From: Acidocella aminolytica 101 = DSM 11237
GTDB lineage: Bacteria > Pseudomonadota > Alphaproteobacteria > Acetobacterales > Acetobacteraceae
DNA length: 64,000 nucleotides
Direction of reading: 5' to 3'
NCBI RefSeq assembly: GCF_900129125.1
Contig: NZ_FQVJ01000004.1
Location: forward strand, 62,001 to 126,000
Part shown: positions 4,841 to 20,696 of the stretch, one piece after another
How the letters are laid out: each line of letters opens with the position of its first letter
Position numbering within the stretch: position 1 is the stretch's first letter
Notes under the pieces: generated by a model
The model's input: only the letters and a program-made list of their open reading frames with translations
What the model was told of the DNA's origin: nothing
Databases searched by the model: none
Made by a program: the position numbers and the translations under genes

Positions 4841-6031
4841 ATGATGCCGACCCGCGCCACAACCAACCCGGCCCGTTTGAATATAATGCGGCTCATCGCC
4901 GGGTGCGCCGCGCTGAATTTAACCTTACTGGCCTTGCTGTTAGTAAGCAAAGCGAGGCTGAATAGCGATTTCATGGCGTTTTGGGCTTATCCGCGGTTTG
5001 CCGCCGGGGCGCATCCGGAGTGGATCTATAACGCCGCCTCGCTTAAAGCATTTGAGCAAAAGCTGTATCCAGGCTTTCACAGCTTTTACCCCTACATCTA
5101 CCCGCCGCCGATGCTGCTGGCGCTGTCCTGGCTGAAGACGCTGCCCTTCGGCGCCGCTGAACTCGTCTGGACCGCGCTGGGGGTCATTGCATTGGCCTTA
5201 GGCACGCGCGCCTTGTTTCCTGCCCGTCCCTGGGCGGCGCTGGCGGGGCTTTTGGCAAGCCCCGCAGCTTTGCTCTGCATTGCCACCGGGCAAACCGGCC
5301 TGTTCGCCACCGCGTTGCTGCTGGCGGGGTTTGCCTACCTGCCAAAACGCCCGGCGTTAGCTGGGGTTTGGTTCGGGCTGCTGACGCTTAAGCCGCAGTT
5401 TGGGCTGCTGGTGGCCGTGTTTCTACTCGCGCGCGACGCCCGGCGTTGCATCCTCACCGCCAGCCTCACCACCCTGGTGCTGGCGGGCGCGGCCTGCCTC
5501 TTTCTACCCGCCACCTTATGGCCACTCTGGCTGCACGCCATGCCGGCCTATCAAAATGGTTATTTCCAAGCGTCACACCTCAATATCGCCCCGGTTATCA
5601 CACCTGCCGCCAATCTCGCGATGCTTGGCGCCGGGCCTGCGACCATCTGGGCCGTGCAAGGGCTGTGCGGGCTGATGATGATCGCCTTGACGGTTTGGGC
5701 AGCCCGGTGTGTTCCGTACCGGTTGGCGGTGGGAATCGCTCTAATCGCCAGCTTTCTCGCCCAACCACATGCTTACGCTTATGACAGTCTCTCTATTATC
5801 GCCGCCCTGGCCCTCGGGCTGGAAGCTGTGCCCGGCAAAGCAATGCAGGCGCTGGGGAGCGTTACCTATCTTGCGCCATTCTTGCTGCTCTCAGCTTTCT
5901 CACCTTGGTTTTTCTATTCCCCCCTGCTGGCTGCATGTCTGCTTGCCTTGATAGCCCTTGCGTTTTCGGCACGAAAAGGGGCAGACTCGATGCATGAGCC
6001 AGACCCTGTTCTACCCCCCTCAACCGCCTGA
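4841..6031 (+). CDS. GT87 (DUF2029) family polyprenyl-phosphate-dependent glycosyltransferase-like membrane protein
   Basis: A 396-residue protein with about ten transmembrane segments. After the first segment comes LNSDFMAFW (Asp43), followed by a periplasmic loop with FYPYIYPP near residue 80, the pattern of GT87 transferases that use polyprenyl-phospho-mannose-type donors. It probably adds a sugar to an envelope glycan, but neither donor nor acceptor is known. The 3' end overlaps the RDD gene by 38 bases, suggesting coupling. Confidence 0.78.
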   Translation: MMPTRATTNPARLNIMRLIAGCAALNLTLLALLLVSKARLNSDFMAFWAYPRFAAGAHPEWIYNAASLKAFEQKLYPGFHSFYPYIYPPPMLLALSWLKTLPFGAAELVWTALGVIALALGTRALFPARPWAALAGLLASPAALLCIATGQTGLFATALLLAGFAYLPKRPALAGVWFGLLTLKPQFGLLVAVFLLARDARRCILTASLTTLVLAGAACLFLPATLWPLWLHAMPAYQNGYFQASHLNIAPVITPAANLAMLGAGPATIWAVQGLCGLMMIALTVWAARCVPYRLAVGIALIASFLAQPHAYAYDSLSIIAALALGLEAVPGKAMQALGSVTYLAPFLLLSAFSPWFFYSPLLAACLLALIALAFSARKGADSMHEPDPVLPPSTA

Positions 6032-16103: not shown

Positions 16104-16679
16104 ATGAACGCGCAATCTGCTTTCGACGGACTGGACGACGCCCAACTCGCCAGCCGTGCGCTATCCGGCGAACGAGCCGCATTTGATGAGATCGTGCGCC
16201 GCCATGGCCCTTCCACCCTCCGCGTGGCGTTACGCCTCTGCCATGACCGCGCCAGCGCTGAGGATATTACACAGGAGGCCATGTTGCGGGTCTGGAACCA
16301 GTTGCACCGCTACGACCCGGCCCTGGCCCGTTTTTCCACATGGCTGTATCGCATTACCGTTAATCTCTGCATCGACCAGTCCCGCAAATGGCGAGGCGAG
16401 GCGTTGCCGGGAAATTACGACGCGGCCGACACTAGCCCGGATAGCCAACAAACCCTGGCCGCACGAGAAGCCAAACAGCTTCTCGCCATGGCGCTGGCCC
16501 AGCTTCCCGTTCGGCAACGCGCCGTGATTCTGCTGGTTTATGAAGAAGGGCTTTCCGGCGCTGATACTGCCCGCGTGCTGGACCTTTCCCCCAAAGCAGT
16601 TGAGCGGCTTCTGGCCCGGGCGCGCGAGCAATTAAAAAAAGCTCTCCGGCGCAGGGGGATGCGTGAGTTTGAACCGTAA
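16104..16679 (+). CDS. ECF-type RNA polymerase sigma factor
   Basis: A 191-residue sigma-70 family factor of the extracytoplasmic type. Region 2 is at about residues 28-96 (AFDEIVRRH, DITQEAMLRVW, RFSTWLYRITVNLCID) and region 4 at about 135-185 (LPVRQRAVILLVYEEGLS, AVERLLARAREQLKKAL). It heads a locus with a lipoprotein, a probable anti-sigma protein and a CnrX-like sensor, so it probably directs an envelope or metal stress response. Target promoters were not identified. Confidence 0.9.
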   Translation: MNAQSAFDGLDDAQLASRALSGERAAFDEIVRRHGPSTLRVALRLCHDRASAEDITQEAMLRVWNQLHRYDPALARFSTWLYRITVNLCIDQSRKWRGEALPGNYDAADTSPDSQQTLAAREAKQLLAMALAQLPVRQRAVILLVYEEGLSGADTARVLDLSPKAVERLLARAREQLKKALRRRGMREFEP

Positions 16680-16707
16680 CAACACGACGTCCCTTATAGG
16701 AAAGAGC

Positions 16708-17376
16708 ATGGATATGATGAAACGCCTGAAAATCTCGGCTCTGGGTCTCTCGGCCCTGGTCTTAACCGGCTGCGCCAGCCCGCAAGTGACCGCGATGAGC
16801 CACACTGGCAGCAGTGCTAACACACCCGCGCCGGAACAAGTACTGGTAAACATCACCCCAGCGCCGCAGAGCAGCCCCACGGAAACGCAAACGGTGAATA
16901 ACGCAGTCACCGGCCTGCAAACGGCTCTTATGGAAAACCTGTCCCGGGAGCATGTGGCTGCGTCCATCTATAACCCGGCCTTGGACCAAAGCGGCGTATT
17001 GGTAATGCATGTCACGATCTCCGCCGCCACACCTGGCAACGCCGCCGCGCGGCTTGTGGTGGGACTGGGGGCTGGCGCCTCTCAATTACTCGTCACCACG
17101 GATATACGCCCTGGCGGTCAGCAGCCCGGCGGCGCGGCAGAGCAATTTAGCGTGGCCAGCGGCAGCGGTGCCAAGCCGGGGCTGATTCTGCCGGGCGGCA
17201 TTGCACTGGCGACGCATAATGTCTGGAGTCTGGCCATTGGCGGGGCCGTTGATGTGGCGATGAACCGCCGTTCCGGCATCAGCGCGGCGGAGGATAAAAC
17301 CGCCAAGAGAATCGTGGCTGAGTTGAAGGCCTATTATACCGCACAGGGCTGGAACTGGCCCGCCCAGAGCGATTGA
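16708..17376 (+). CDS. DUF4410-like lipoprotein in ECF sigma locus
   Basis: A 222-residue predicted lipoprotein. The signal sequence ends in LVLTGCAS with Cys22 as the lipidation site. The mature part contains VNNAVTGLQTALMENL and LVVGLGAGASQLLVTTDI, which resemble the DUF4410 family (function unknown). The ATG at 16708 has AGGAAAG just upstream. It lies between the sigma factor and the anti-sigma-like gene; its stop abuts the next gene's ribosome-binding site. That placement is unusual for cnr-type loci and suggests a sensory or target role. Confidence 0.72.
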   Translation: MDMMKRLKISALGLSALVLTGCASPQVTAMSHTGSSANTPAPEQVLVNITPAPQSSPTETQTVNNAVTGLQTALMENLSREHVAASIYNPALDQSGVLVMHVTISAATPGNAAARLVVGLGAGASQLLVTTDIRPGGQQPGGAAEQFSVASGSGAKPGLILPGGIALATHNVWSLAIGGAVDVAMNRRSGISAAEDKTAKRIVAELKAYYTAQGWNWPAQSD

Positions 17377-17393
17377 GACAGGAGGGCAGATCA

Positions 17394-17807
17394 TTGAAAA
17401 TCTCGGCATTCCGGCGGCTGGCGGCCGCCTACGGAGCAGATCTGACACGTTGGCCCGAAGCGCAACAGGCCGAAGCCCGGCGCTTGCTGGTAAGCTCAGC
17501 CGAGGCCCAGGCCCTGTTGCAGGCGGAAGCCGCACTGGACACCGCCTTGGCTAAACTGCTCCTCCCGCAGCCTGACGCAACGGATCTGGCACGGCTGCAA
17601 GCCGGCATTGCCACCCGCCTCGACGTCCCGAAACACCAGCCTTACCGACGACCCGCTTTGCCGCGTTGGAGCTGGCTCTGGGCTGGTGCCTCCGGCATGG
17701 TCGCCGCAGGGGTGGCGGTTGGGTTGTTAACCGCCACCCCGTCCGCCACAGCGGGCCTGCTCAGCGCATTGCAGCCCGCCGCCATACCGGTTTTTTCGGG
17801 ATCATAG
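17394..17807 (+). CDS. Probable membrane anti-sigma factor (CnrY-like position)
   Basis: A 137-residue protein with a soluble N-terminal part (FRRLAAAYGADLTRWPEAQQAEARRLL, typical of small proteins beside alphaproteobacterial ECF genes), a single transmembrane segment near residues 92-114 and a short periplasmic tail. The start is TTG at 17394 because GGAGGG lies seven bases upstream; another TTG at 17373 lacks a site. The topology and position between an ECF factor and a CnrX-like sensor suggest an anti-sigma function. There is no direct sequence proof. Confidence 0.65.
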   Translation: MKISAFRRLAAAYGADLTRWPEAQQAEARRLLVSSAEAQALLQAEAALDTALAKLLLPQPDATDLARLQAGIATRLDVPKHQPYRRPALPRWSWLWAGASGMVAAGVAVGLLTATPSATAGLLSALQPAAIPVFSGS

Positions 17808-17808
17808 A

Positions 17809-18267
17809 ATGAAAGCCCTTCCCTGGCGTCAAAGCGCCCTGTTTCTCTCCCTGGCGTTCAATCTGTTCTTGCTTGCGCTGATCAGCGCGCATGTGCTGCG
17901 AAATTGGCAGTTCGACACTGTCTTGAGCAGACAAACACCTTTGCAAAGGGTCCTTATTCAAGCCGAATCAGCTTTGTCTCCGGCTGACCGCAAAGCCTTC
18001 GACAAAGCGCTGCTGGCAGGTGAAGCGCAATTTGGCCCCGCAGCGGACAAAGTGGCTATCGCCCGGCATCATCTCGCCCAAACTCTGCTTGCCCAGCCTT
18101 ATAACCCCACCGCGACAGAAGCCGCGCTGGCAGGCTGGCAGACAAGCTGGGTGCAGTTCCAGACAGCCTTTACCCCACCGTTGCTCAACGCGTTCCAAGC
18201 TCTTTCACCGCAAGGCCGCCAAGCCTTGGTGCATGAGCGCCGCACGCGGCTGCACACTAGCCCCTGA
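17809..18267 (+). CDS. Periplasmic heavy-metal sensor-like protein (CnrX/CpxP type)
   Basis: A 152-residue protein with one N-terminal membrane segment (about residues 10-30) and a helical periplasmic domain (ALSPADRKAFDKALL, followed by several amphipathic helices). This is the layout of periplasmic metal sensors such as CnrX and NccX. The expected metal-binding His-rich region is sparse here (His86, His87), so the signal could be different. It follows the anti-sigma-like gene by one base, and the original terminator of the operon lies 21 bases after its stop. Confidence 0.7.
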   Translation: MKALPWRQSALFLSLAFNLFLLALISAHVLRNWQFDTVLSRQTPLQRVLIQAESALSPADRKAFDKALLAGEAQFGPAADKVAIARHHLAQTLLAQPYNPTATEAALAGWQTSWVQFQTAFTPPLLNAFQALSPQGRQALVHERRTRLHTSP

Positions 18268-18288
18268 CAATCGCCTCTCCGTCCCGCC

Positions 18289-18297
18289 AAGCCGGAA
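18289..18297 (+). terminator. Left half of a rho-independent terminator split by the IS607 element
   Basis: AAGCCGGAA here is a perfect reverse complement of TTCCGGCTT at 20243-20251, which is followed by more T residues. The two arms are now about 1.95 kb apart. Bringing them together gives a standard 9-bp hairpin with a T tail directly after the CnrX-like gene. Confidence 0.75.
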
Positions 18298-18350
18298 GGG
18301 CTGAAACAGTTTGCTTGAGATCTATTTGAACCTGCTTCATTTTCTCCAAA

Positions 18351-18985
18351 ATGGAGAGGTTAGTCAGTATAAGCGAAGCGGCTCAGACGCTGGGAGTGTC
18401 GATTACGACGCTTCGGCGATGGGAAGCCGAAGGCCGGTTGCTGGCGGAACATACGGCGGGCGGGCATCGCCGGTATGATCTGGCAAAGCTGCTGCCGGAG
18501 CGGTTTCGGGCGGTGCAGCAAGCAAGCCGCAAAACCATCGGCTATGCCCGCGTTTCCAGCCACGATCAAAAGGATGACTTGGAACGCCAGAAGCAGGTTC
18601 TTGAACTGTATTGTGCTCGGCAGGGCTGGACGTTCGAGGTCATCGCCGGCCTCGGGTCCGGGACGGGATGAACTCCCGCAAGAAGGGCCTCAAGCGGCGG
18701 CTGGACGCGATCATTGACGATCAGGTTGGCAGGCTGGTGATCGCCCATAAGGACCGGCTGTTGCGCTTCGGCGCGGAACTGGTGTTTGCCATCTGCGAGG
18801 CCAAGAACGTTGAAGTGGTGATCCTCAATCAGGGCGAGGATACGGCATTCGAGGAAAACCTTGCCAAGGACGTGCTGGAATTCATCACCGTGTTCTCCGC
18901 CCGGCTTTACGGCTCTTGGTCATACCGCAAGCAGAAACTGCTTGATGGTGTCCGCCGCGCCGTCGAAGAGTCAGCGCCATGCTGA
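18351..18985 (+). pseudogene. tnpA: IS607 family serine recombinase TnpA, frameshifted
   Basis: The first 103 or so codons give a MerR-like helix-turn-helix (SISEAAQTLGVSITTLRRWE) and the start of the resolvase domain (IGYARVSSHDQKDDLERQ, with the nucleophilic Ser). At 18659-18668 the five bases CGGGA occur twice in tandem. This shifts the frame and stops it after GLGSGTG. Removing one copy restores SGMNSRKKGL and reading continues in frame through HKDRLLRFGAEL and NQGEDTAFEENLAKD to the stop at 18985. The single lesion suggests a recent loss. Confidence 0.9.
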
Positions 18986-20190
18986 TTGCGCACCGCATCG
19001 CACTGGACCCGACCGACAAGCAGCCAACCTACTTCGCCCGTGCTTCCGGCGCGTGGAACTGGGCGCTGGCCGAATGGCAGCGTCAATATGCGGCACGCAA
19101 GGAGGATCCATCTTTGCCGCAGCCGTACGATGCCGGGCTGCGCCGGCAATTGAACAGCCGCAAGCGCGAACAGTTTCCTTGGATGTTCGATGTGACAAAA
19201 TGCGCCGCGCAGGAGGGCATCATCGACCTTGGCGGCGCGTTCCGGGCCTTTTTCGAGAAGCGGGGCCGCTATCCCAGGTCCAAAAAAAACCTGCCCGGCC
19301 AGCTTCTGCGCCGCCAATGAGGCGGGGACGTTCCGTGCCGATGGCAAGCGTATTGGGCTGCTGCCGGTGGTTGGCTGGGTGCGGATGCGCGAGGCCGTGC
19401 GGATCACCGGCAGGCTCAAGCGCGTCACGATTTCCCGCGAGGCCGACCGCTGGTTCGCCAGCGTCACGGTCGAGACGGACGATGTGCGGCCCGTGGCGCA
19501 GCCTTTGGCCGCTATCGGCGTCGATCTTGGCATCACCACCCTGGCCACGCTGAGCAACGGAGCGTCTATCCCTGGCCCCAAGGCTCACAAGGCGCTGTTG
19601 AAGCGCCTGCGCCGCGCCAACAAGGCCATGCCCGCAAGGTGCTTGCCGCCCGCCGGGCCAAGCGTAAATTCGGCGAGAACGTCGCCAAAGCCCGACGCAG
19701 GCTCGCCCGGCTGCATGCCCGGATCGCCAATATCCGCCGAGACGGCACGCATAAGGCGACAACAATATTGGCAAAGACTTACCGGCGCATCGGCATCGAG
19801 GATTTGAATGTGCGCGTCATGGCCCGCAACCGGCGGCTGGCGCTCTCCATCATGGATGGCGGCTTGTTCGAGTTTCGTCGCCAGCTTGAATACAAGACGC
19901 GGTTTTATGGCGCGGCGGTGATCGTCGCGGACCGTTGGCTTCCATCGAGCAAGACTTGTTCCTGCTGCGGTTCGGTCAAGGCCGAACTAGCGCTGTCGCA
20001 GCGGACCTATCATTGCGACGCCTGCGGGCATGAGATCGACCGCGATCTCAACGCTGCCCGTAATCTCGAACGTTTGGCCGCAAGCTCTGCGGTGTCAGCC
20101 TGTGGAAAGGAACGCTCTGGCGCTGTGCGCAAGCCCCGCGTGAAACGAGCCTTGAAGAAGCAGGAACCGAACAGCAGCCTCGCCGCGTAG
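18979..20190 (+). pseudogene. tnpB: TnpB RNA-guided nuclease (IS607/IS200 accessory protein), two frameshifts
   Basis: Three frames together encode a TnpB of about 403 residues. The N-terminal part runs 18979-19281. An A8 run at 19282-19289 has one A too many for the next frame. The middle part carries the first RuvC aspartate (IGVDLGI). After 19630 one G is missing (ATGCCC where ATGGCC is expected), and reading moves to the third frame, which holds the RuvC Glu (GIEDLNV), the zinc finger (CSCCG ... CDACG) and the last Asp (DRDLNAARN). All catalytic residues are still encoded, but no intact protein can be made without recoding. Confidence 0.9.
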
Positions 20191-20242
20191 CTTTAATCAG
20201 CTATGGCAAGGTATGCATAGGTTTCGGAGAGCGGTTCAACTA

Positions 20243-20255
20243 TTCCGGCTTTTTT
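20243..20255 (+). terminator. Right half of the split terminator with T tail
   Basis: TTCCGGCTT followed by four T residues (six T in all at 20250-20255). It pairs with 18289-18297. Together they form the terminator of the ECF locus before insertion. Confidence 0.75.
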
Positions 20256-20369
20256 GCGCCTTAACACGGATACGAAACGTTACAATTCCATCTGTCGCAC
20301 GGCTCATGCCCGTCCGTAACAACAGCATCAACCAACGACGCGGAACGCTAAACACCAAGGAGACAGGAC

Positions 20370-20696
20370 ATGACCCACAAAACAATTCTCGCCGGATTCA
20401 CGACTTGCGCGCTTTTGCTGGCCGGGCTGAGCCCCGCCATGGCAGCCGGATGGTCCTATACCGGGCCGCACGGGGGAAGCGTGACCCGCTGGGGAGCCCC
20501 ACCGCCACCACATTATTACCATTACGGATATAGCAGCGGGGCCGTGGCCGCCGCTGGGGTTGTGGGGCTGGCGACTGGGCTGGCCATCGGAGCCACGACT
20601 CAACCGCCCCCTCCACCGCCTGTTATAGTGGCGCCACCACCGCCGCCACTCACGGTTTATGTTACCCCGGCGCCTGGGTATTATTACGCGCCGTGA
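20370..20696 (+). CDS. Small exported proline-rich protein
   Basis: A 108-residue protein with a clear signal peptide (about residues 1-26, cleavage near AMAA). The mature part has a YHYGYSS segment, a Gly/Ala-rich hydrophobic stretch (VAAAGVVGLATGLAIGA, about residues 53-71) and three proline runs with VYVTPAPGYYYAP at the end. Similar short YXWW/proline-rich exported proteins are common in Acetobacteraceae, with unknown function. AAGGAGA lies upstream of the ATG. It stands alone, between the IS607 element and the convergent LpxR gene. Confidence 0.75.
   Translation: MTHKTILAGFTTCALLLAGLSPAMAAGWSYTGPHGGSVTRWGAPPPPHYYHYGYSSGAVAAAGVVGLATGLAIGATTQPPPPPPVIVAPPPPPLTVYVTPAPGYYYAP

Follow-up and report, generated by a model that had tools for sequence, protein, structure and literature searches.

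Elements of the IS607 family insert at GG or (G)GG without duplicating their target and have no terminal inverted repeats, and (G)GG is the only feature that was reported to be common to their target sites (PMC6188088). The guide of the associated TnpB comes from the DNA flanking the element (PMC8612924). In the IS607 reRNAs described so far a 3' part of 64 nt is found, after which the guide begins (PMC11061315). We analysed a stretch of 64,000 nucleotides from Acidocella aminolytica (referred to as the window), in which an element of this kind is located behind an operon encoding an ECF sigma factor, a probable anti-sigma factor and a CnrX-like sensor (Table 1). It is very probable that an IS607-family element inserted into the loop of the terminator of this operon, split its two arms and decayed later on.

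Table 1. Features of the operon, the element and its flanks (positions in the window)
Feature	Position	Strand	Basis
ECF sigma factor, encoded by the first gene in the operon	16104-16679	+	Pfam Sigma70_r2/r4_2
DUF4410 protein	16663-17376	+	PF14366, E 5.9e-12
Small protein, probable anti-sigma factor (CnrY position)	17373-17807	+	conserved position in relatives; without Pfam match
CnrX-like periplasmic metal sensor	17809-18267	+	PF13801 Metal_resist, E 5.8e-12
Putative split terminator, 5' arm AAGCCGGAA	18289-18297	+	direct reading, flank-pair test
Left junction, (G)GG core common to target and element	18298-18300	+	left ends of homologous copies
IS607-type element, about 1,935 bp, degenerate	18300-20234	+	aligned copies, Pfam, tblastn
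tnpA (MerR and serine recombinase domains), frameshifted once near 18662-18664	18351-18985	+	tblastn
tnpB, frameshifted twice (around 19260-19290 and 19630-19660)	18979-20190	+	tblastn
Probable reRNA (omega RNA) region: RAGATH-18 match 20099-20166 plus 68-nt 3' flank	20099-20234	+	weak match; layout as in PMC11061315
Predicted TnpB guide (20 nt), covering the terminator loop, 3' arm and T tract	20235-20254	+	right end of the element and guide position in PMC8612924, PMC11061315
Putative split terminator, 3' arm and T tract, TTCCGGCTTTTTT	20243-20255	+	direct reading, flank-pair test
Small secreted protein gene beyond the insertion	20370-20696	+	similar gene downstream of CnrX in Acidisoma

Ends and decay of the IS607-type element

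The ends of the element were fixed by aligning other IS607 copies, and the arms were not used for this purpose. On the right the element ends with AGAGCGG at 20234; the other copies read AGA(A/G)CGG and continue with unrelated sequence past it. The left ends of the copies read (G)GG and then YT..AACAG (window, GGAAGG before GCTGAAACAG; L143, GGTGG before GCTTTAACAG; L147, TCAGG before GTTTTAAACAG; L154, TGCGG before GCTCGAACAG), and therefore the left junction lies within the GGG at 18298-18300. The GG core is present at both ends and in the target, and neither a target duplication nor terminal inverted repeats were found. In a preliminary description of the window the arms had set the limits of the element at about 1.95 kb, with its boundaries expected between 18298 and 20242. 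The independent mapping (18298-18300 to 20234, about 1,935 bp) places both boundaries inside this interval.

Because the ends mapped from homologous copies fall inside the arms, both arms are host DNA. As exact inverted repeats that flank the element they could also be taken for its own terminal inverted repeats or for parts of its ends. This is exceedingly improbable, since the arms are absent from all other copies aligned, in which the homologous part is bounded by (G)GG on the left and by GCGG on the right, and since the elements of this family are known to be without terminal inverted repeats (PMC6188088).

That the element between the arms is of the IS607 type, as had been proposed from its first inspection, is borne out by the Pfam domains of its products. 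MerR and resolvase domains (PF00376 and PF00239) are located on two pieces of TnpA, and the TnpB pieces comprise HTH_OrfB, OrfB_IS605 and Cas12f1-like_TNB domains (PF12323, PF01385 and PF07282). TnpA is 76-85% identical to the TnpA of the IS607 element on plasmid pACRY02. When the intact pACRY02 proteins were used as tblastn queries, TnpA was recovered in two pieces and TnpB in three, in both cases in different frames. The copy is degenerate because tnpA carries one frameshift and tnpB two; it does not have the intact tnpA and tnpB frames that are required for mobility, which are no requirement for descent, and by descent it is a degenerate member of the family.

Contigs C75, C71, C17 and C107 of the same genome carry additional, incomplete IS607 copies that belong to this subfamily (L002-L006). 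Several of these partial copies end at contig ends, and the element is therefore a repeat which breaks the assembly. Two IMG/VR viral contigs, L147 and L148, carry the same IS607 insertion, the copy in L148 being 179 bp longer, apparently within the tnpA region. The L147 copy (about 2930-2950 and 4905-4925) lies inside a small inverted repeat, TTTCAG/CTGAAA, of 6 bp and without a T tail.

The arms and the original site

The 5' arm AAGCCGGAA at 18289-18297 is the exact complement of the 3' arm TTCCGGCTT at 20243-20251, just as the preliminary description had stated, and the gene ahead of the 5' arm is CnrX-like according to its PF13801 match. Together with TTTT, TTCCGGCTT spans 20243-20255 as TTCCGGCTTTTTT, which ends in a run of six T (20250-20255). 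An inverted repeat continuing inward from the arms (GGGCTGAA versus TTCAACTA) was considered as well and rejected; its left stretch belongs to the conserved left end of the element.

If the flanks are rejoined without the element (AAGCCGGAA-GGTTCAACTA-TTCCGGCTTTTTT, i.e. AAGCCGGAAGGTTCAACTATTCCGGCTTTTTTG), they fold into an intrinsic-terminator hairpin that begins 22 nt past the stop of the CnrX-like gene. This hairpin has a 9-bp stem, six T and a folding energy of about -13.5 kcal/mol (-13.4 to -14.8; -14.8 with the third G counted). A G+C-rich hairpin, a T run directly after it and a stop codon just before it are the features by which Rho-independent terminators are recognised, and all of them are present in the rejoined flanks. 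Contig C59 of the same genome carries a near-identical intact hairpin, AAGCCGGAAGTTATCCGGCTTTTTT, whose distance from the stop of the preceding open reading frame is likewise 22 nt. Five further genomes of the genus contain hairpins of like shape, and none was obtained with the reversed control pattern.

The bare presence of the 9-mer AAGCCGGAA is weak evidence, because it occurs four times in the window on both strands (mean of 0.5 in shuffles). The weight rests on the arrangement: each copy adjoins one end of the same mobile element, the two are inverted relative to each other, and T residues follow the second. For the flank-pair test unrelated GG flanks from the window were paired at random 400,000 times, and a pair counted as a match if it gave a perfect stem of 9 bp or more, a loop no longer than 16 and a tail with five or more T in six. 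Stem, loop and T tail together were obtained for a single pair in 400,000; stem and loop alone were obtained for 626 pairs. The two further occurrences of the 9-mer in the window, as well as the searches in the genus, in relatives from the order and in viral contigs in which an empty site was not found, would suit arms that are unrelated and complementary by chance, the element having entered ordinary intergenic DNA. With a match in one of 400,000 unrelated pairs, and with arms that abut the mapped core and resemble the intact copy on C59 in shape and in the 22-nt distance from the stop, we consider such a coincidence very unlikely. A shared origin of the arms is supported because the rejoined flanks fold as an intrinsic terminator and the probability of this by chance is about 2.5e-6. 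That the arms represent the two halves of one original terminator, which has since been split, is well supported by the sequence, and on this point too the earlier proposal stands.

No empty site was found in DNA and protein searches of the genus or, for CnrX, in a sample of 397 genomes of the order, nor was one found among the sigma-factor relatives in GTDB genomes. A scan of viral contigs with the joined-site pattern gave no match, and within the genome itself the right-flank sequence has no exact copy other than the locus. CnrX has no match in the 37 other genomes of the genus that were searched, and CnrX-like matches are present in 53 of the 397 genomes of the order; this patchy distribution is possibly due to transfer or loss. 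The best relatives of the operon, too distant to supply an empty site, are found in Acidisoma cellulosilyticum (sigma factor, 57%) and in a genome of the same family (CnrX, 40%). The intergenic sequence after CnrX is not common to the closest relatives, whose identity does not exceed 57% for the sigma factor and 40% for CnrX. As a comparable terminator follows CnrX in only 3 of 22 operons elsewhere in the order (random rate 3%), the terminator reading gets no support from conservation.

For a comparison of target sites, six other independent IS607 copies with both ends mapped were available. If the IS607 elements of this clade selected the loops of terminators or hairpins, the insertion would have been a targeted event, and both the position of the window copy in a loop and the 6-bp stem straddling the L147/L148 site would fit. 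However, none of the six other sites is a terminator, their stems comprise 2-6 bp without a T tail, and (G)GG is the only common target feature reported (PMC6188088). Targeting is therefore highly improbable; since none of the six lies in a terminator, there is no sign of it, and the insertion into a terminator looks like a matter of chance for this family. In the titles and abstracts from a literature search on IS607 with terminators, a targeting of terminators by IS607 is unreported.

Proposed history, possible read-through and predicted TnpB guide

According to the history that we favour, insertion into the terminator loop, the original site would have read AAGCCGGAAGG(G)TTCAACTATTCCGGCTTTTTT, with the arms joined by about 10-11 nt. 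The target of an IS607-family element would have been the (G)GG in the hairpin loop of the operon's intrinsic terminator, and the TnpA serine recombinase of the element would have exchanged strands across the GG core, so that the target was not duplicated. The arms would have been left as exact host flanks 1.9 kb apart (the element measures 1.94 kb), and separated in this way they could no longer form a local hairpin ahead of the T tract. Afterwards the element would have decayed as frameshifts arose in both of its genes.

From 18200 to 20400 the present sequence has no predicted terminator on the + strand, which supports the earlier view that the operon has lost its terminator. As no replacement is predicted, transcription of the operon may continue into the element, and a read-through of this kind is plausible. 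The frameshifted reading frames would leave untranslated RNA that is open to Rho, which would probably end the transcripts there. The locus is an ordinary and clear case of insertion-sequence damage, and its local interest lies in how the operon is now ended. It provides base-level ends of a degenerate IS607 element, documents an insertion into a probable terminator loop and predicts that transcripts started in a presumed metal-responsive sigma operon read through into a transposon; the knowledge of IS607 is unchanged by it.

Close to the right end of the element a weak match to RAGATH-18 (RF03064; E 0.1) plus 68 nt stops exactly at 20234. The layout is that of the RAGATH-18 reRNAs of IS607 TnpB, in which a motif of about 70 nt and a 3' part of about 65 nt are followed by the guide; it differs from them in its score of 25.0 bits, which is below the gathering score of 44.9. 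The predicted guide of the window copy is TTCAACTATTCCGGCTTTTT. Because tnpB is frameshifted, this guide would be a remnant, unless it is used by a different TnpB. There is only a slight chance that the nuclease of the intact element cut the restored terminator and in this way enforced the loss of termination of the sigma operon, and that hairpins of this kind may be preferred by IS607 elements related to it.

Comparison with described operons and elements

An ECF sigma factor, an anti-sigma factor (assigned this role by position) and a Metal_resist sensor are encoded in one operon, as is characteristic of the CnrYXH type. The gene order sigma, anti-sigma, CnrX is found in most CnrX relatives, and from its position the product of 17373-17807 is probably the anti-sigma factor. 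The operon shares with CnrYXH-type ECF sigma operons that the ECF sigma factor, a small second protein and the CnrX-like sensor occur together. It differs from them by a DUF4410 gene between the sigma factor and the second protein. In Acidisoma (L041) a DUF4410 homologue occurs further downstream, preceded by CnrX, by an EF-hand-like gene and by a gene related to that at 20370-20696. The window gene at 20370-20696 has a similar position to the Acidisoma gene downstream of CnrX, and the sequence match between the two is weak (E 0.05).

The element agrees with the IS607 family in the order of its genes, a MerR-resolvase TnpA followed by TnpB, in (G)GG at both junctions, in the absence of target duplication and terminal inverted repeats, and in an reRNA-like region at its 3' end. 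It is different in that both genes are frameshifted and that it sits in what was probably a terminator loop and not in ordinary DNA. Among annotated copies the IS607 element on the Acidiphilium cryptum plasmid pACRY02 (NC_009468.1) is nearest, with the same ends and 75% DNA identity over the element; in contrast to the window copy, its genes are intact and its insertion site is not a hairpin.
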